NCBI GenBank assembly: GCA_031259845.1
Contig: JAIRKZ010000133.1
Coordinates: 1-42,016, forward strand
DNA length: 42,016 nt
DNA from: Tannerellaceae bacterium
Lineage (GTDB): Bacteria; Bacteroidota; Bacteroidia; Bacteroidales; Tannerellaceae
Direction: 5' to 3'
In this document: piece after piece, positions 3,027 through 27,755 of the stretch
Layout of the letters: each line of letters opens with the position of its first letter
Numbering within the stretch: the first letter of the stretch is position 1
Translations under genes and position numbers: made by a program
The notes under the pieces: model-generated
The model's input: the letters and a program-made list of their open reading frames with translations, nothing else
Told to the model about the DNA's origin: nothing
The model's database searches: none

Positions 3027-3077
3027 AGAGAGGGTATATCCAAAAGCGCGCTTTTGGGTATACCCTCTCTTTTTTTT
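3027..3077 (+). terminator. Rho-independent terminator of the Ig-like protein gene
   Basis: A long, almost perfect inverted repeat is visible: GAGAGGGTATA and TATACCCTCTC as outer arms, and CCAAAAG/CTTTTGG as inner arms around a CGCG centre. Eight T follow directly on the plus strand (3070-3077), starting 12 bases after the stop codon. On the minus strand the stem is not followed by a T-run, so it should act mainly for the plus-strand gene. Confidence 0.92.
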
Positions 3078-3112
3078 AATACGTCTTGTCTTTTTTTTTA
3101 ATACGCCCTGTC
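3070..3112. repeat. Tandem duplication of about 21 bp at the 3' end of the M64 peptidase gene
   Basis: Two adjacent copies are seen at 3070-3090 and 3091-3112. Each is a run of 8-9 T followed by TAATACG, a variable triplet and TGTC. The second copy encodes the last residues and stop of the minus-strand M64 peptidase (D-R-A-Y-stop). The first would encode D-K-T-Y-stop in the equivalent frame. The first copy's T-run also serves the plus-strand terminator. Confidence 0.8.
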
Positions 3113-4387
3113 TGTAAGAAAATCAACCATACGCAAAATAGCCCGGCTGCATGCGGGGCAGAAGGGGGCGTAGTCACGCATCATGCAATGGTCCATCGGG
3201 CGGTAAATGCCTTTGGGCAGGTAGCCTCCCCCTTCGTAAACGCCCGGTTTGTCTTTCCATTCGTCGTTCAAGGGGGTGGGGATGGGGGTATGGGCAGGCA
3301 ATAAGTCTTGCCATTTACTGCCGAAATCAACCAGGGTGGTGATATTCGGTTCCCAGGGTTCTTTCTCTAAGTTGTAAAAAGCTTCGTCGTAGGCCACTTC
3401 CGATGAAAAATACTCGTCGGCCAGTCCTGCAAAGCTGTGGCCGAACTCGTGGACAAAGACAACGGGCGTACGGGCATTGTCCGACGTTCCCATGGCATAA
3501 AAATTATACATGCCGCCGCCGCCGTACATATCGGTATTGACTAAGATAAAAATAGCGTCGCAGGGCACGTTCCATACGGCGTTGCGGATGGATTTCATAT
3601 CCGGCGTGGTGAGGTAGCGGCTTACGCCGAAGGTGTAGTATCCCGCGTTCAGGGCCGTATTCTTAAAGACGCCTTTGCCCGAAACGTCTGTTCCGGATTC
3701 TCCGGATGCAAGCGCTACCGCCCATACATTGAAATCGTTGCGGCGCGCGTCGAAGGGCGGCGTATTGAATAATGATTCTGCAAATCTGCCGGCGTCTGCT
3801 TCAAATTTCTTTTCTTCCCGGGCGGTATATCCTTCGGCGATGAACACTAAATCTACCTTTGAAGCGGGGTCTCCTTTATACTGGATTTGCGTTACGGCGT
3901 TATCGTTCAGTTTTCCCCGGTCGATAAATATACTCGAAGGGTCTATATCCAGCGTCATCAACGTGTGGAATTGCATATCGCTCCTGTCTCGCCCGGTAAT
4001 CTCTAATACGGTTTCTTTTTTAGGGAAGGGCACGGATACGCTGTTTGTCCATGATTGCGTTTCGCGTTTGGCTTGTTCCGTTGAACGCCATTCTTCGAAC
4101 AGCGTATTGAAACCGCGCGAATAGATTAGTTGTTTGCCGGCTTTATCATACAGGTTTACATAATAACCGCCATAGTAAAACGTATCAATCAGGTTTTTCA
4201 CCGGGCCCCCCCACGCCGGCTCTTCACGCATTTGCTGCAAAGCCGCCTGCTGGCGTTCGCTATCGCCGCTGAGCGCAAAGTCTACGCGCAGGCTCTTTTT
4301 CTCAAACCAGTCGCCAAACCGTATCTGGGCATAACCGTTTGAGGCGACAAAAAGAAACAGGATTAACAAAGACTTTTCTGTTTTCAT
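3098..4387 (-). CDS. Secreted M64 family zinc metallopeptidase (IgA peptidase M64-like)
   Basis: The 429-residue product starts with a clear signal peptide (MKTEKSLLILFLFVASNGYA), so it is exported. The zinc-binding motif HEFGHSFAGLADEY begins at His313, with Glu314 as catalytic base and His317 as second ligand; this extended motif is typical of peptidase family M64. The N-terminal part (about 25-150) matches the beta-sandwich domain usually found in front of the M64 catalytic domain. The family name comes from a Clostridium IgA protease; the Bacteroidota members are mostly uncharacterised, so the substrate is unknown. It starts 20 bp after the DUF3467 gene and is probably co-transcribed with it. 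Its 3' end carries a small tandem duplication. Confidence 0.9.
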   Translation of the reverse strand: MKTEKSLLILFLFVASNGYAQIRFGDWFEKKSLRVDFALSGDSERQQAALQQMREEPAWGGPVKNLIDTFYYGGYYVNLYDKAGKQLIYSRGFNTLFEEWRSTEQAKRETQSWTNSVSVPFPKKETVLEITGRDRSDMQFHTLMTLDIDPSSIFIDRGKLNDNAVTQIQYKGDPASKVDLVFIAEGYTAREEKKFEADAGRFAESLFNTPPFDARRNDFNVWAVALASGESGTDVSGKGVFKNTALNAGYYTFGVSRYLTTPDMKSIRNAVWNVPCDAIFILVNTDMYGGGGMYNFYAMGTSDNARTPVVFVHEFGHSFAGLADEYFSSEVAYDEAFYNLEKEPWEPNITTLVDFGSKWQDLLPAHTPIPTPLNDEWKDKPGVYEGGGYLPKGIYRPMDHCMMRDYAPFCPACSRAILRMVDFLTDRAY

Positions 4388-20691: not shown

Positions 20692-22152
20692 TCAATCAAC
20701 GTAACCGGGATTTTGATAATCGAATCCGCCTTTCTTACCTTCGTTCACGGCGGAAGTAGGAAGAGGGAACAGATGACTGTTGACGCCCAGTCCGGTGATA
20801 TAATCTGTTTTACCGGCGTTGATACACTTTTGCGACATGATTTTTACATACTGGTTGTTACGGATCAAATCCTGGCGGCGCGTGCCTTCGTACCACAATT
20901 CGTGAGCGCGTTCCCACAGCAATTTGTCGATGAAATTGTCGGCTCCGCGGAAGTCGCCCGGTTGAAATGCCGTTAGCCCTGCACGCGTGCGTACCTGGTT
21001 GAGAAGTTCGACAGCTTCCTGTGTTACGGTTCCGCTTTGGTGTACAAGAGCTTCTGCCAATAGAGTAATGGCGTCTGCGTAGCGGTACACAATCCAGTCG
21101 GTATAGCATTCGTCTCCTACGCGGTCTGTCATGTCATATTTCATAGGCAGAACCCCTTCCTCCGAACCACCGTCTTGAATAACCAGCAGACGTTCATCGC
21201 CGGCTTCGAATGTTTCATAAAATTCGCGGGTCATCTTATATCCGCCCCATGAAACCACGTGCGGATACCATAAATGACTCTGATATTCACGCAAGCAGTT
21301 GACAGCCCATATCGTTTCCTTATTACCTTCGTTTGCAGAGGTGAAGACGTTTGCATAAGCCGATTCGGCGTTGCCTTTGTCGGTAACCAGTTGATAACCG
21401 TACTCGCTCTTCATCAGTTCGCGTCCTTCGGTAATGGCTTTGTCCCATTGCTTTGTTTGCATATAGAGCTTGAGCAACAGCATGTGGCAAAGGCCTTCGG
21501 TGAAGCGTCCGTAATCCTTACTGTCTGCATCGTAATTTTTGGGTAAGACGCCGATGGCTGCTCTTAACTTTGTTTCGATATAAGCGATTGTCTGTTCGTT
21601 GGTTTGGCGGGGTAAAATCACTTCATCCTGAGGGTTTTTCAATACTTCGAGATCGGCTACTATAACAGGCCCGTAAAAGTCCCACAAGAGGAAAGCAATG
21701 AATCCCTGTCCACATTCCAGTTCAGCGATAAAGCGTTTTTTAAGTTCTTCGTTCATCTCGATACCCTTAATCCGGTCGATAGTGAGTTCCATTTTGCTTA
21801 TCCATGGCAGATACGCCTCCCAGTTTCTCCTTGGGTTACGTTCTCCGTCTTTATTCTGGAAATTGGCGTATTCCAGTGGCCCCCAGTTGCCTTCTCCCCA
21901 GGAACAGAAACCGAAATCGGTAGCCATATCGCCTAACAGGTGGAACCCGGTGGCGGAATTGAAGGCTCCTGCGTATCCACTGTTGCGGAAGGCGGCATAG
22001 GCGTTGCCGGAAACCAGGTCGAGGGCATCCTGCTCGGTGGTGGGATACAGGGAAGAACTCACCTGGCTGTAATCTTCCGAGTCCAGGCTGCAACTCTGTG
22101 TGATGAATGCAGCGAACAACAGTGTTATTATATATATGTTTATCTTTTTCAT
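20692..22152 (-). CDS. SusD/RagB family outer-membrane nutrient-binding lipoprotein
   Basis: A 486-residue lipoprotein. The signal peptide ends in the lipobox TQSC, with Cys20 as the likely lipidated residue. The N-terminal TPR-like region and the C-terminal SusD block ending LFPLPTSAVNEGKKGG and QNPGYVD are typical of the family. SusD-like proteins sit as a lid on the SusC barrel and capture glycan or peptide ligands. It begins 18 bp after susC, forming a pair. No substrate-specific clue is visible, and no enzyme gene follows: the next gene is rpsU behind a terminator. Confidence 0.95.
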   Translation of the reverse strand: MKKINIYIITLLFAAFITQSCSLDSEDYSQVSSSLYPTTEQDALDLVSGNAYAAFRNSGYAGAFNSATGFHLLGDMATDFGFCSWGEGNWGPLEYANFQNKDGERNPRRNWEAYLPWISKMELTIDRIKGIEMNEELKKRFIAELECGQGFIAFLLWDFYGPVIVADLEVLKNPQDEVILPRQTNEQTIAYIETKLRAAIGVLPKNYDADSKDYGRFTEGLCHMLLLKLYMQTKQWDKAITEGRELMKSEYGYQLVTDKGNAESAYANVFTSANEGNKETIWAVNCLREYQSHLWYPHVVSWGGYKMTREFYETFEAGDERLLVIQDGGSEEGVLPMKYDMTDRVGDECYTDWIVYRYADAITLLAEALVHQSGTVTQEAVELLNQVRTRAGLTAFQPGDFRGADNFIDKLLWERAHELWYEGTRRQDLIRNNQYVKIMSQKCINAGKTDYITGLGVNSHLFPLPTSAVNEGKKGGFDYQNPGYVD

Positions 22153-22170: not shown

Positions 22171-25100
22171 TTAAAAACTAATATCTACTCCAAAACTGAA
22201 CGTACGCACATTCGGGTAAGAATAAGCGGCTGCATTCTCGGCGTTGGAATCAGAGGGGTTGTAGTCCGTTTCCGGATCCAGTCCGTTCCAGTTGCTGATT
22301 ACGAACGGGTTATTTACGCTTACGTTCAGCCGGATGTTGCTTGCTATGTTCTTAAGGCCGGGGATTGTGTATCCGAACGTGATGTTGCGGCAGCGCATAA
22401 ACCACACATTCTTCATAAAGTAATCGCCGGCGGAATCGCTTGATTTCAACAGATTGGGTACGGATGAATTGGGGTTATCCAGCGTCCAGCTGTCGAGGGC
22501 TTTCTGAGACATATTGTACAGCCCGCCGCTGGGTGCGGAAAAGCGGTAGGGCAGCCATGAGTCGTAGTAGCTTGCATCGCGCCAGCGCCCGGCCTCTCCG
22601 TATAGATATACATTGAGATCGATTCTTTTGTAGCGTATGGTATTGTTAAAGCCATACGAGAAATCGGGGTCTTTGGAGCCTATAAGTACTATGTCGCCAT
22701 CGCCTAAGGCATCCTGTTGCGTAAGGCTTTTTATTTTAACCTGGCCGGGGAGTAAGCCTTTCTGCCAGGCGGGGATTGTTTCGCCGGGTTGCAGCAAGCC
22801 GTCTGCCTGATAACTGAATATGGCGCGTATCGGATCGTTTACCGACTGATATTCGCGGGGTATCCAGTTGGGGTCGCGTTCTTTCCAGCGGTCTTTGTAT
22901 TTATAGAAAGTGAGGTCTGAAGTCCATACTAAATCGCGGGTTTTGATATTCACGGTATTTAGCGTAAGTTCTATACCCTGGCTTTGAGTGGCCCCGATGT
23001 TGGCGGCAATGGAAGTTACTTCATTGTAAGACGGCAGCGACTTGTTCGTTACCAGCAGATTGGAAATTACGCGGTCGTAATATTCTGCGGTCAGATTGAT
23101 ACGGTTGTTGAGGAAGCCCAGGTCTATCCCTATGTTCCATTCGCTGGTGGTTTCCCAGGTTATTCTGGGATTGCCAAGCGTACTTACGCCCATACCGGTT
23201 ACTCCCGTGCTGCCGAATACGTATTTCCAGTCGGATTTAAAATAATCCTGCACGCGGTTTCCCACGCTGGTGTTACCGGTTTGTCCGTATCCTGCGCGCA
23301 GTTTACCGTTGGATAAGATGTGGCGGGTATTTTCCATAAATGCCTCTTCGCTGAAGCGCCAGGCGCCCGATACGGAAGGGAAATATCCCCAGCGGTAATC
23401 GGGATTGAAATTGGATGATCCGTCGGCGCGCAAGGTGGCGGTGAGGAGGTATTTGTCGGCAAAGGCATAATTGATTCGCCCGAAAACGGAACTCAGCGAA
23501 CTCATCGTTTTACTGGAGCCAACCGTTTTTTCTCCTGAGCCGGCGCCCAGATTATTGTAGAGGAAATTATCTATCGAGAAGTTTGTATTTCCGGCATTGA
23601 ACCATTCGGCATTGAACTGTTGCCATTCATAACCGGCCAGGGCTGTGAGGCTGTGTTCGCCAAACGACTTCATGTAATTGGCCGTAAGGTTGAACAGATA
23701 ATCCATGCCGTCGTCCTGGGCCTGATTGGCATTACCGTTGGTTGTCTGGCCGTAGAGGGTGGTTTTCGGCAGATAGGTTTTACGTTTTGAAAATTTACGG
23801 TCGAAGCCCAGATTTGCTTTGACAAGCAGGCCCTTTACGGGTTCTACCGACAGGTATCCCGTGCCGAGTACGCGGTCTTTAATGGTGTTATCTTCGATAT
23901 CCAGCATAGACGCAGGGTTGGGGAATTGCTTGTATACGTTAGACTCCGAGAATTTCCCTTCTTCGTTATATACAGGTATGTTCGGCTCGAAGAAAGTGGC
24001 TACGCCAAGTATGCCCGAATTTTCAAACTGTCCGGTTCCCAGGGGAACGTTGTCGTATGTATTGCGGCTGATGTTGAATGTTAATCCGCCTTTTACGTAT
24101 TGGGAGAACTCATAATCGTTGTTCAGGTTGATGGTAAACCTTTGCATATTACTGTTCTTCAGGATGCCTTTCTGGTCGAAATAATTCAGCGAAGCCAGGT
24201 ATTTTGATTTATCGGAACCTCCGGCAATCGATACGTTATGAGATTGTTGCAGGCCTGTCCGCGTAACCTCGTCTATCCAGTCGGTGGTTTGCGCATTGGC
24301 AATCTCGGCATCCGTATATTTGGGCGTGTAAGCGTCCGGCATATTGGGCCTGGGCGTAACGTAAGCGGCGTAGGCGCCTTCCCCCCTGTCGCGTCTCCAT
24401 TTTTCGAGTTCGTACATATTGCTGAGCTTCATGTATCCGGGGGCGTCGAGTATTTTGTAATTGGAAGCGATTGTTTGAGCGGATACGTTGCCCGAGTAGG
24501 TAACGTTTGGCTTGCCGGCCTTACCGCGTTTGGTGGTGATGATAATTACCCCGTGCCCGGCGCGTGAGCCGTAGATGGCCGTTGCGGAGGCATCCTTCAG
24601 CACTTCAATGCTCTCTACGTCGGACGGGTTTATCATTTCCAGCACATTGTCCTGGCTCCCGGCGCTGTAGCGGTTTCCGCTGCCCGTAGAGGCCGATTTG
24701 GTGATGGGAAATCCGTCTACAATGATAAGCGGATCGTTACTTGCATTGATAGACGTTTGTCCACGGACGCGAAACGTAGCGCCTGCGCCCGGCTGTGCGG
24801 TAGCTTGCGTAACGCGAAGCCCGGCCGCTTTTCCCGCCAGCGCATGGCTTACGGAGGATAGGGTTCCTGTGGGCGAATCGTCCATTTTTATGGAGGATAC
24901 GGCGCCGGTGAGGTCGCGTTTTTTCTGCACGCCATAGCCTACCACCACCACTTCGTCTAAAGCCTGGGTGTTTTCTTCAAGCTTAATCTCGAATACGGTT
25001 TTGTCGCCCACGTTTATTTCCTTAGGCAAAAAACCGAGATACGATACGCTTAACGTAGCGTTCTGCGGGACGTCTAACGAAAACGAACCGTCTATGCCGG

Positions 25101-25527
25101 TCACCGTGCCGTAAGCCATCCCTCTTACCGCCACGGAGGCCCCTGCAACAGGTTCTCCGTCTCCATCTTTCACCACCCCTGTTATTTTCCTTTGTCCCTC
25201 TTGCGCCGGGCTTGCTTTTTTAGGGATAAGAAGGATGATGTTGTTATCCTGCTTCTGATAACTTACGTCGGCGCCTGACAATAATTGGGTGAGTACGGCG
25301 TCGATAGCGCCGTCTGTAACTTTCAGCGAAACGATTTTGTCAAGCCCTTCCAAATCGTTGTTGTAAAAGAATTTAAAGGCGCTTGCCGTTTCAATCTCTT
25401 TCAAGACTTCTTTCAGCCGTTTGTTTTTAACGTCGACTGTAATCTGCGAAAATAAACCGTGAGAGAGGAGTAACATACACAGGATGTGTACGACTCGTTT
25501 GCGATACAATAAAATTTTAAATCTCAT
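22171..25527 (-). CDS. SusC/RagA family TonB-dependent transporter with STN domain
   Basis: An 1118-residue outer-membrane protein. Residues 1-28 are a signal peptide. An STN domain (about 29-102), which talks to FecR-type anti-sigma factors, is followed by a carboxypeptidase-regulatory-like domain (about 113-185) and a TonB-dependent plug starting ALDEVVVVGYGVQKKRDL near residue 189. The barrel ends with RTFSFGVDISF, with a C-terminal phenylalanine as expected for outer-membrane barrels. The STN domain and the adjacent ECF sigma/FecR genes indicate signal-transducing transport. The ligand is unknown. Confidence 0.96.
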   Translation of the reverse strand: MRFKILLYRKRVVHILCMLLLSHGLFSQITVDVKNKRLKEVLKEIETASAFKFFYNNDLEGLDKIVSLKVTDGAIDAVLTQLLSGADVSYQKQDNNIILLIPKKASPAQEGQRKITGVVKDGDGEPVAGASVAVRGMAYGTVTGIDGSFSLDVPQNATLSVSYLGFLPKEINVGDKTVFEIKLEENTQALDEVVVVGYGVQKKRDLTGAVSSIKMDDSPTGTLSSVSHALAGKAAGLRVTQATAQPGAGATFRVRGQTSINASNDPLIIVDGFPITKSASTGSGNRYSAGSQDNVLEMINPSDVESIEVLKDASATAIYGSRAGHGVIIITTKRGKAGKPNVTYSGNVSAQTIASNYKILDAPGYMKLSNMYELEKWRRDRGEGAYAAYVTPRPNMPDAYTPKYTDAEIANAQTTDWIDEVTRTGLQQSHNVSIAGGSDKSKYLASLNYFDQKGILKNSNMQRFTINLNNDYEFSQYVKGGLTFNISRNTYDNVPLGTGQFENSGILGVATFFEPNIPVYNEEGKFSESNVYKQFPNPASMLDIEDNTIKDRVLGTGYLSVEPVKGLLVKANLGFDRKFSKRKTYLPKTTLYGQTTNGNANQAQDDGMDYLFNLTANYMKSFGEHSLTALAGYEWQQFNAEWFNAGNTNFSIDNFLYNNLGAGSGEKTVGSSKTMSSLSSVFGRINYAFADKYLLTATLRADGSSNFNPDYRWGYFPSVSGAWRFSEEAFMENTRHILSNGKLRAGYGQTGNTSVGNRVQDYFKSDWKYVFGSTGVTGMGVSTLGNPRITWETTSEWNIGIDLGFLNNRINLTAEYYDRVISNLLVTNKSLPSYNEVTSIAANIGATQSQGIELTLNTVNIKTRDLVWTSDLTFYKYKDRWKERDPNWIPREYQSVNDPIRAIFSYQADGLLQPGETIPAWQKGLLPGQVKIKSLTQQDALGDGDIVLIGSKDPDFSYGFNNTIRYKRIDLNVYLYGEAGRWRDASYYDSWLPYRFSAPSGGLYNMSQKALDSWTLDNPNSSVPNLLKSSDSAGDYFMKNVWFMRCRNITFGYTIPGLKNIASNIRLNVSVNNPFVISNWNGLDPETDYNPSDSNAENAAAYSYPNVRTFSFGVDISF

Positions 25528-25581
25528 AATACCTTGGTTTTTAATTTAATTAACAAAAAGTTTCTATCTTTAGCTATTCTG

Positions 25582-25589
25582 CAAAGATA
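25582..25589 (-). promoter_or_regulatory. Possible -7 box of susC
   Basis: TATCTTTG on the minus strand matches TAnnTTTG and ends about 54 bases ahead of the susC ATG. No TTTG is found at the expected distance upstream, which could fit recognition by the ECF sigma factor or an activator instead. Confidence 0.45.
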
Positions 25590-25840
25590 TATTTATACAG
25601 TTGGCTGTTATCTTTCCACTATTCGCCCTCGAATAATTAACTTTTATTAAGCATACGTTGATATAAGCGCCGGCATGATGAAGAGGGGAACCGCCTTCCT
25701 GTGGATAGCCCCGGCGATAACAACCGTCAGCTGGTTTGCCGCGAGGAGAGTAATAACGCCGGCATTAAGGCAGGGATAATTCCTCCGGGTAAGTAATGAC
25801 TGCCGGCAATGACCGGAGGCCGGGCAGACAAGGCGACAGG

Positions 25841-26092
25841 AAGCGGGGAAATGCCGCACGGAAAAGGGGAAATGCCGTGCGGAAACAGGGCAATTCCGTG
25901 TGGAAAGGAGGCGATTCCGTGCGGAAACAGGGCGATTCCGTGCGGAAAGGAGGCGATTCTGCGCGGAAACAGAGCAATTCCGTGCGGAAGCGGGGCGATT
26001 CTGCGCGGAAACGGGGCGATTCTGCGCGGAAAGGAGTCGATTCTGCGCGGAAACGGGGCGATTCTGCGCGGAAATTCTCCGATTCTGCTGCC
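25841..26092. repeat. Array of twelve 21-bp direct repeats between fecR and susC
   Basis: Eleven clear units and one degenerate unit follow each other without spacers, starting at 25841, 25862, 25883 and so on to 26072. The plus-strand core is GGGCGATTCTGCGCGG or GGGCGATTCCGTGCGG, preceded by AAACA, AAAGG, AAACG or AAGCG. The AAACA and AAAGG types alternate in units 3-7, suggesting duplication in 42-bp steps. Each junction forms a 12-bp near-palindrome of the form TTCCGTGCGGAA. The period equals seven codons, so heptapeptide ORFs (e.g. SAQNRPV or RAESPRF on the minus strand) appear in several frames; none has a recognised domain. Confidence 0.95.
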
Positions 26093-26109
26093 ATTGTGGC
26101 AGGAGACGA

Positions 26110-27099
26110 TTAGTTATACCTGTATAAATATACAATACCGTCGTCCGACCTGTAGTTAATGGAAGAAGTCAGCATAATTGCTTCCAATACGCTTTTGATA
26201 CTCGTATTGTCTATCGTTCCTGTAAATCGCATATTGGCCAGATGCAGGCTTTCAAATACGATGTCGATATTGTGCATGCGCGATATCGTTTTCATGATAG
26301 TTTCCAGCGATTCGTTTTCAAAGCGCAGGCGGTTTTGCCTCCAGGCGGTGTAGTCGTCGGCGTTTACTTTTTCGCGGGTAGCCGTTCGGGTTGTTTTATC
26401 ATACAGGATGCGTTCGTCGGGCGCCATTTCTATCTTTTCTACCGGAGTGGTCAGTTGTATTTTACCTGTGTTTAACACGATTGCAATATGCTTTTCATCG
26501 TCGTAAGCCTTAATGCCGAAACTTGTTCCCAATACCCTGATTTGTATATCCTCACATTCCACGATAAAAGGTTTCTCCGGGTCATGTTTTACATCGAAAT
26601 AGGCTTCTCCTTCCAGGCGGAGAAACCTGTTTTTGCGGTTGTAGTCATCAGGATATGTAATTTTCGAATCCGAATTGATAGCCACCATCGTGCCTTCCGT
26701 GAGCGTAAGGCTGGCCTTTTCGCCCTTGTTTGCAATCACTTCGAGCGAGGCCGCCTGCCGGGGCTTCAGGTATAGCCAGGCAGCAAACAGGATAACGGCA
26801 GGCAGCAGGCAGGCTGCAATCGCCCGCGTTGTGTCCGGGCGCAGCCAGGCGTAGCGCTTCTTTCCGCCGGCAGAGGCATGCGGCATAGCGCTATCGCCCG
26901 TCCGGGAACGTATATTCTCCAGCATTCTCATCTGTATATCCGGGCTGATAATGCCAGAGGCGTTTTCCATCCCCTCTTCCATCCATTTGCCAAGGCCGGC
27001 GTCATTTTCAAAAAACGACTTTAACCGTTTGATATCATCCCTCGTTGCTTCCCCCCGCAGATACCGTTCAAATGCAGGCAGGCAATTTTTTTTATTCAT
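26110..27099 (-). CDS. FecR family anti-sigma factor/regulator
   Basis: A 329-residue inner-membrane regulator. A cytoplasmic sigma-binding segment (about 1-90) precedes one membrane span (about 92-111, AIAACLLPAVILFAAWLYL). The periplasmic FecR domain follows, with LTEGTMVAINSDSKITYPDD and RFLRLEGEAYFDVKHDPEKPF-type strands, and a C-terminal DUF4974-like (STN-type) domain that contacts the transporter signal. It lies between the sigma factor (71 bp upstream) and the repeat array before susC. It should hold the sigma factor inactive, or activate it, depending on the SusC signal. Confidence 0.95.
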   Translation of the reverse strand: MNKKNCLPAFERYLRGEATRDDIKRLKSFFENDAGLGKWMEEGMENASGIISPDIQMRMLENIRSRTGDSAMPHASAGGKKRYAWLRPDTTRAIAACLLPAVILFAAWLYLKPRQAASLEVIANKGEKASLTLTEGTMVAINSDSKITYPDDYNRKNRFLRLEGEAYFDVKHDPEKPFIVECEDIQIRVLGTSFGIKAYDDEKHIAIVLNTGKIQLTTPVEKIEMAPDERILYDKTTRTATREKVNADDYTAWRQNRLRFENESLETIMKTISRMHNIDIVFESLHLANMRFTGTIDNTSIKSVLEAIMLTSSINYRSDDGIVYLYRYN

Positions 27100-27170: not shown

Positions 27171-27755
27171 TTAATTAACAAAAATACCTGTTAATAATAA
27201 CGCTATGATGCAATCAAAATATTTTGCCAGGCGCTCTTTCATAAAAGATATGGCCTTTGACAACTGCGTTTGCACCGTGCTTTCCGAAATCCGGAGCCGT
27301 TCTGCTATCTCCCTGACCGAGAGATTTTCTTTCCTGCTCAGGATAAATACCTGTTTTCTGGCCGGCGGCAGTTTGTCTGTTAAGCGGTCTATAAATTCCT
27401 CCAGCAGCTTCCCGTCCGTTTCTTTTTCCGTGCTGTTGTCTGCCTCGGCCTGAAACGATTGTATATATTCCCTGTAAATATATTCTATCGCCCGGTGTTC
27501 ATATTCATTTACCAGCCTGTTGCGGGCGATGGCGCACAGGTAAGCAATAAAAGACTTGTCAGGATTGAGGAAAGCGCGCGTTTCCCAAATCCTGACAAAC
27601 GTATTCTGAACCATTTCTTCCGCCAGATAAACGTCTCCCGAAGAAAGTTTAAGGATAAAATTGTATAACTTCCCACTGTATGTATGGAATAACATTTCAA
27701 ACGCTTGGGGCGAACCGTCGCGAAGTTTCAGCAGGATGTCTTTTTCTGTTTCCAA
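27171..27755 (-). CDS. ECF-type RNA polymerase sigma factor
   Basis: A 194-residue sigma-70 family factor. Region 2 spans about 20-88 (EEMVQNTFVRIWETR and the IARNRLVNEYE segment). Region 4 spans about 122-176, with a helix-turn-helix LSVREIAERLRISESTVQTQL. The linker between them is charged. The hydrophobic C-terminal tail (IIALLLTGIFVN) is unusual for a soluble factor but is seen in some Bacteroidota members. It heads the sigma/FecR/SusC/SusD locus; it starts 43 bp after pepC, with no clear promoter in that gap. Confidence 0.94.
   Translation of the reverse strand: METEKDILLKLRDGSPQAFEMLFHTYSGKLYNFILKLSSGDVYLAEEMVQNTFVRIWETRAFLNPDKSFIAYLCAIARNRLVNEYEHRAIEYIYREYIQSFQAEADNSTEKETDGKLLEEFIDRLTDKLPPARKQVFILSRKENLSVREIAERLRISESTVQTQLSKAISFMKERLAKYFDCIIALLLTGIFVN

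Follow-up and report, generated by a model that had tools for sequence, protein, structure and literature searches.

The array between fecR and susC

The window, by which we mean the whole stretch of DNA analysed (42,016 nucleotides of contig JAIRKZ010000133.1, from a Tannerellaceae bacterium), contains an array of short tandem repeats between two minus-strand genes. The features at this locus are the following.

20692..22152, minus strand: susD-type protein (Pfam)
22171..25527, minus strand: susC-type TonB-dependent receptor (Pfam), downstream neighbour of the array
25665..25840, no strand: GC-rich, non-repeated stretch flanking the array
25765..26094, minus strand: open frame of 109 amino acids with 7-residue repeats across the array, judged not to be a gene
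25841..26092, no strand: array of twelve 21-bp units (12-bp dyad core plus 9-bp spacer)
25852..26073: eleven recognisable 12-bp cores (at most two mismatches to TTCCGCGCGGAA), with an exact 21-bp step in 10 of 10 cases
26072..26092, no strand: twelfth unit, degenerate, at the fecR end of the array
26110..27099, minus strand: fecR (FecR and FecR_C domains, Pfam), upstream neighbour of the array
27171..27755, minus strand: ECF sigma factor (Pfam)

The array is 252 bp long and consists of 12 head-to-tail units of 21 bp with no gaps between them. Each unit combines a near-palindromic core, whose consensus TTCCGCGCGGAA is a perfect palindrome, with a spacer. The array ends 17 bp from the fecR stop codon at 26110 and lies 313 bp from the susC start at 25527. 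The twelve directly abutting units of the original prediction, eleven of them good and one degenerate, are confirmed at 25841-26092, and its proposal of dyad sites spaced regularly at about two helical turns is supported. Tandem Repeats Finder describes the array at periods 21 (11.2 copies, 80% matches), 42 (4.7 copies, 88% matches, the highest of the three) and 63 (3.4 copies, 80% matches), a pattern in line with array growth by blocks of units, which had also been suggested. With up to two mismatches, TTCYGYGCGGAA occurs 33 times in the window compared with 14.6 expected, a count that none of 100 shuffles reached.

The GC-rich stretch at 25665-25840 is shorter and partly alignable in a second array-carrying genome (G008) and has, by eye, no counterpart in the array-less genome G016. 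The "susC promoter region" of the original prediction was not located by a sigma-70-type scan of positions 25400-26300, other promoter types being outside the reach of such a scan. Elsewhere in the window, two long open frames are separated by a tandem repeat of other sequence but likewise near two helical turns in period (period 22, 2.4 copies, 3063-3113).

A clade-specific family of intergenic arrays

The array is a member of a clade-specific intergenic minisatellite family. The source genome (3.66 Mb, 87% complete) contains 43 matches to a two-unit pattern at a tolerance of three mismatches, and none to the reversed control. A sequence search with the window array, together with one row added later, gave 18 array rows. 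They represent 17 loci, because the rows on contigs C172 and C56 both match a single array at the dxs locus of G008 and are therefore two ends of one array. All 18 rows are intergenic: for 17 of them, overlapping frames are either frames of the repeat itself or extend from a gene start outside the array, and the remaining row (L165) sits between two plus-strand frames. The genome search for the unit that had been recommended as a check on the original prediction finds it between diverse genes. Pfam, applied to the neighbours at nine of the 17 loci, identified fecR and susC; dnaB and corA; an ECF sigma factor and an M28 peptidase; a lipocalin-like protein and a hybrid two-component regulator; an E1-E2 ATPase and a DUF362 protein; as well as dxs, NAD kinase, a PBP-type binding protein and an O-antigen ligase-type protein. 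No common theme is apparent among these neighbours.

Cores hardly ever occur singly. The motif TTC(YR)3GAA is found 109 times inside arrays, but only three times outside them in 451 kb of the source genome, where 1.9 occurrences are expected. Some arrays at non-orthologous loci share flank modules, of 66-80 nt with 70-82% identity among C16, C107 and the C32/L122 locus, and of 26-34 nt between L064 and the L119/L128 locus, with two more matches of 33 nt each. This suggests that array and edge were copied together at a minority of loci. Terminal inverted matches are not clearly in excess: within 150 bp (30 rows), the longest averages 9.5 versus 9.2 in shuffled flanks, with one row reaching 13 versus a shuffled maximum of 12, and within 400 bp (28 rows), the mean is 11.2 versus 10.1, with maxima of 15 in both. 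On two contigs, the source genome also harbours a separate family with a TCTGAAAGCTTTCAGA-type palindrome (L219, 1669-2052; L227, 6930-7025), whose 41-bp period recalls the PgRS repeats of Porphyromonas gingivalis.

Among 40 genomes searched (the source genome and 39 relatives), only three carry the family, namely the source genome, G008 and G013, and probes made from G013 and G008 arrays again pointed to three of the 18 genomes of the genus. These three carriers are all draft assemblies in many contigs, G008 being 58% complete. By flank matches, seven of nine G008 loci and nine of ten G013 loci have a counterpart among the array loci of the source genome, and 12 of the 17 source loci recur in one or both of these genomes. 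At the window locus, the source genome has 11 cores and the orthologous G008 site 6; at the L071/L113 locus, the counts are 14 and 11, with 150-bp flanks that are 98.7% identical. Copy number is thus variable at a fixed locus between two species, as in a minisatellite (VNTR), and the copy-number change envisaged in the original prediction is borne out at the species level. In G016, which ranks next in closeness within the genus as judged by dxs and leuA identity, the dxs and fecR-susC neighbourhoods are both present and both without array. The simplest reading of these comparisons is that the family would have arisen or arrived after the split from G016. A comparison for an empty site at leuA gave no information, because the upstream sequence past the leader region differs among the source genome and the 8 of 17 congeners inspected.

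A scan for an exact three-core pattern in a wider contig collection, from which records of or near the source genome may be absent, returned 10 stretches, with units listed for six of them. Six stretches belong to JAISXD (Tannerellaceae bacterium Nc350_bin163), one to JAITRG (Tannerellaceae bacterium Roe453_bin14), and one each to a Planctomycetaceae MAG and two other Bacteroidetes MAGs. One stretch, L108, is of doubtful kinship to the family, since its cores depart from the consensus at 4-5 of their 12 positions. In the MAG labelled Planctomycetaceae, an 11-core array (L100, 7259-7480; cores such as TTCCACGCGGAA) runs in 21-bp steps near a contig end. In an uncultured Bacteroidetes (L102, 472-714), the core is TTCCGTACGGAA, and the spacer CACCAACTT recurs in inverted form (AAGTTGGTG) between cores. 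A two-core scan of viral contigs gave two weak stretches, of 3 and 2 units. In the open-access papers searched, we found no account of 21-bp arrays in this bacterial group.

Cores, spacers and candidate explanations

In the 39 array rows of the three genomes, 430 steps between units measure 21 bp and 7 measure 22 bp, and the result is the same when steps of 14-28 bp are allowed. The unit consensus over all rows is TTCCGCGCGGAAACGGGCGAT. Core positions T1, C3 and G10 are 97-99% conserved, and the core centre varies mainly by transitions, with the exception of position 8 (18 transitions, 19 transversions). Insertions and deletions are rare in the arrays (7 versus at least 653 substitutions), although the shortage relative to the flanks (9 gaps versus 320 in local alignments) is only moderate.

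Within any one genome, unlinked loci show coordinated changes of the core, and changes in the spacers are far less coordinated. When the units of all 39 rows were compared, with orientation assigned from the spacers, cores at different loci were more alike within than between genomes (an effect reached by 0 of 1000 permutations of the labels), whereas the same test on spacers was matched by 766 of 1000. Spacers are instead more alike at orthologous loci (0 of 1000). Cores carry a locus signal as well (1 of 1000, or 22 of 1000 without three rows). With a transition on either half of the palindrome counted, the mean fraction of units per array in the source genome, G008 and G013 is 0.44, 0.91 and 0.43 for the 4/9 transition, 0.14, 0.03 and 0.56 for 5/8, and 0.58, 0.39 and 0.16 for 6/7. 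All three differences exceed all of 2000 permutations, also without rows L126 and L164. Folded counts of non-consensus bases agree (0 of 5000 permutations for each of these pairs, 3 of 5000 for pair 2/11). Where loci are shared, G013 shows the 5/8 change more often than the source genome does at nine of nine, and G008 shows the 4/9 change more often at seven of seven, once narrowly (0.60 versus 0.54). In an oriented pair test by position, position 5 dominates (0 of 2000) and positions 4 and 9 contribute less (36 and 13 of 2000), with spacer position 16 scoring similarly to these (16 of 2000). Spacer positions 15, 16 and 21 reach 56, 68 and 67 of 5000 permutations (about 0.01), so that some exchange between loci is possible.

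Decay of methylated CpG is attractive as a source of the core changes, because most of them hit CpG bases. It is disfavoured, since the same contexts outside arrays, in aligned sequence that is largely coding, mostly show ordinary C-to-T rates like those of any C. The exceptions are based on small numbers: GCGCGG (3/13) and CGCGG (8/50) from G008 to G013, where the rate for any C is 0.071, and CGCGC (10/66) and GCGCGG (3/20) from G013 to G008, where it is 0.069.

We tentatively favour the view, short of regarding it as probable, that the dyad core, which recurs every two helical turns, is read by a putative trans-acting protein. Each unit would offer one symmetric site, roughly TTC-YRYRYR-GAA, two turns from the next, so that molecules of a dimeric, sequence-specific DNA binder could line up on the same helical face. 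The sequence that this binder prefers would have drifted in each species, dragging the cores of many arrays along and leaving the spacers to drift more freely. The job of such a protein could be chromosome organisation, silencing, or upkeep of the arrays. A protein that reads the core in trans gives the best fit, because copying from locus to locus should carry the spacers along, and a mutational bias should appear outside the arrays as well.

The main alternative, which we consider a serious if somewhat less attractive possibility, is a functionless minisatellite, similar to BrickBuilt of P. gingivalis, that was seeded at many sites in the ancestor of the three species and has since been resized by slippage and unequal recombination, with the cores coordinated by occasional conversion between loci. 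Whole-unit changes in copy number, the sub-structure at periods 42 and 63, the flank modules shared by non-orthologous arrays, the restriction to one clade, the position of several rows at contig ends and the weak genome signal at three spacer positions are all consistent with it. However, conversion of whole units would move spacers too, yet the strong genome effect is one of cores, and the same contexts outside arrays do not betray a general mutational bias.

A wider version of the protein-reading view is speculative and in our opinion rather unlikely: the genus (Tannerellaceae) would possess a system resembling satellite DNA, in which chromosomal dyad arrays are bound by a putative fast-evolving protein, with lineage-specific sequences and a lasting 21-23 bp period and dyad layout. 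If true, it would be a bacterial counterpart of fast-turnover satellite repeats and their binding proteins. Tandem Repeats Finder, run on sampled contigs of four genomes of the genus (208 kb of G016, 400 kb of G007, 246 kb of G000 without contigs C7 and C16, and 272 kb of G001), returned 72 arrays, 42 of them with a period of 20-24, 22 at about two, three or four times that length and 8 others; the "two-turn" bins (20-24, 40-47, 61-66 and 81-86) were picked after a first look at the data. Arrays of at least four copies number 24, 20 of them in G001, whose sample (L233-L252) has 32 tandem arrays in total, including 20 of period 20-24 with several unrelated sequences. Dyad symmetry above that of shuffled units (p<0.05) was found for 13 of the 42 consensus units (2 of 5 in G016, 3 of 13 in G007, 0 of 4 in G000 and 8 of 20 in G001). 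In G001, eight of nine core motifs tried form clusters, among them CGTGCGCACG, whose 16 steps all measure 21 bp, and TGGAACGGGCGTTCCA, with 23 bp on three contigs. In 100 kb of G020, a small control from another genus, there was no tandem array. Given the size of this control, we regard this wider pattern, including the richness of G001 in sequence-unrelated 21-23 bp arrays, as a lead rather than a result.

Very unlikely is a structural RNA, in which the transcribed array would fold into long stem-loops and thereby shield the upstream transcript or bring it to an end. Plus-strand RNA of the window array folds far beyond shuffles (z -6.6), and the array begins 17 bp past a stop codon. The well-folding strand is, however, antisense to fecR and susC, and the minus strand is modest (z -2.6). 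Among the other clearly asymmetric rows of the source genome between codirectional genes, L068, L070, L076 and L071 also fold better opposite to the genes, a selection made after the table had been seen and with the gene beside L076 judged from its ortholog; the weakly asymmetric L061 and L063, between plus-strand genes, fold slightly better on the plus strand. Moreover, four of the 17 loci lie between divergent genes (one with the second gene 1 kb away), and Rfam matches are far under gathering scores.

Spread of the palindromes by a Y1 tyrosine transposase, as for REP sequences and their RAYT enzymes, is highly improbable. The units are palindromic, extragenic, multicopy and species-specific, and one carrier, G013, encodes a full-length Y1_Tnp (129.9 bits, 158 codons uninterrupted by stops). 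But the source genome has only partial Y1_Tnp matches, none were found in G008 (58% complete) or in the array-rich G001 (86% complete), and the non-carriers G004, G007, G015 and G016 possess Y1_Tnp. The rarity of single cores also argues against this origin. The GTAG or CGTC tag is absent from the consensus TTCCGCGCGGAAACGGGCGAT; among 430 units, 4 contain GTAG/CTAC and 36 contain CGTC/GACG anywhere.

A switch in which copy number tunes downstream susC expression can scarcely be upheld, and susCD tuning is unlikely to be the reason for the existence of the array. The original prediction pointed to this link from the position between fecR and susC, and the copy number does differ at the orthologous G008 site. 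There are sixteen other loci, however, the Pfam-identified neighbours at eight of them share no theme, and the fecR-susC neighbourhood of G016 does without an array. The original prediction had itself stated that presence at random intergenic sites genome-wide, together with an identical fixed copy number in all strains, would argue for an inert repeat with no link to susCD control. The arrays do sit at many intergenic sites, and hence no special susCD link is left, whereas the copy number is not fixed. That the repeat is inert does not follow, because the cores change coordinately within each genome.

Least probable of all is a protein-coding repeat of seven residues. It is true that 21 is divisible by three, that open frames cross the array on both strands, that synonymous positions 6 and 9 of the F-R-A-E frame vary (17% and 49%), and that a stop-free frame continues for at least 120 codons past the array in 5 of 22 rows examined (5 of the 21 G008 and G013 rows), twice into dxs. 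Against this, the reading frame is lost at 22-bp steps in 6 of 39 rows, in-frame steps of 18 or 24 bp do not occur even when allowed, the amino-acid-changing positions 4 and 7 vary (18% and 31%) and the synonymous position 3 is 98% conserved, and the three frames of the array between fecR and susC have no Pfam match above cut-off. In G013, a 29-core array upstream of dxs (L131, 1-700; L126, 3-2561) is in frame with dxs in a stop-free stretch of 853 codons, and G008 has a similar one of 736 codons; these long frames are probably an effect of composition.

The core is unlikely to be a parS site of ParB, since near-canonical parS matches sit on another contig: a scan with the parS consensus found two (1 and 2 mismatches; L264 and L265) on C180 of the source genome, 7.4 kb apart, with one match per strand in a reversed-pattern control. 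CRISPR, described as repeats of 24-48 bp with non-repetitive spacers between them (PMC3733652), is ruled out by the 21-bp period and by 9-bp spacers that recur.

Relation to known repeat systems

What intergenic minisatellites such as BrickBuilt do in Bacteroidales is still unsettled. In the family described here, three species with orthologous arrays and interleaved core and spacer make a trans influence on the core separable from copying between loci. The same layout makes it testable whether a protein reads the repeat, with species-matched cores serving as bait.

Iterons and plasmid centromere repeats likewise space their sites by about two helical turns. They sit at a single locus for replication or partition, however, and the present arrays occupy 17 chromosomal loci. 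REP and REPIN elements are described as multicopy extragenic palindromes whose families differ between species and are sometimes tandemly reiterated, with GTAG or CGTC tags and an occurrence as singles, dimers and clusters (PMC3733652). Unlike these, as far as that description goes, our units form essentially only tandem arrays, lack a consensus tag and have no consistent link to a Y1 transposase.

By description, the closest known kin are two repeats of P. gingivalis, the 23-nt BrickBuilt and the 41-nt PgRS. PgRS/464 is a multi-copy element with 41-nt tandem repeats and MITE ends (PMC4596501); like it, the present family is multi-copy, belongs to Bacteroidales and has internal tandem repeats, and the 41-nt unit, though bounded by MITE ends, is near twice 21. 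BrickBuilt is portrayed in the same source as a minisatellite/MITE of spacerless imperfect tandem repeats at 19 loci in one genome, always intergenic, with whole units gained or lost between strains, some copies sharing flanks, long stem-loops predicted, and a subset of loci conserved in P. gulae as well (PMC4596501). Its 23-nt units are accompanied by a leader and a tail with IS5-like terminal inverted repeats, and bidirectional promoter activity has been reported (PMC4596501). Spacerless tandem units, many loci, the intergenic position, resizing by whole units, conservation of some loci in other species and predicted stem-loops are common to both. The family is nevertheless set apart from BrickBuilt, because the unit length does not agree (of 437 steps here, 430 measure 21 bp and 7 measure 22 bp) and terminal repeats are not clearly present. 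The units here have a dyad core, and sharing of flanks is limited to short modules in a minority of rows. What goes beyond BrickBuilt as there described is the coordinated drift of the cores between species.
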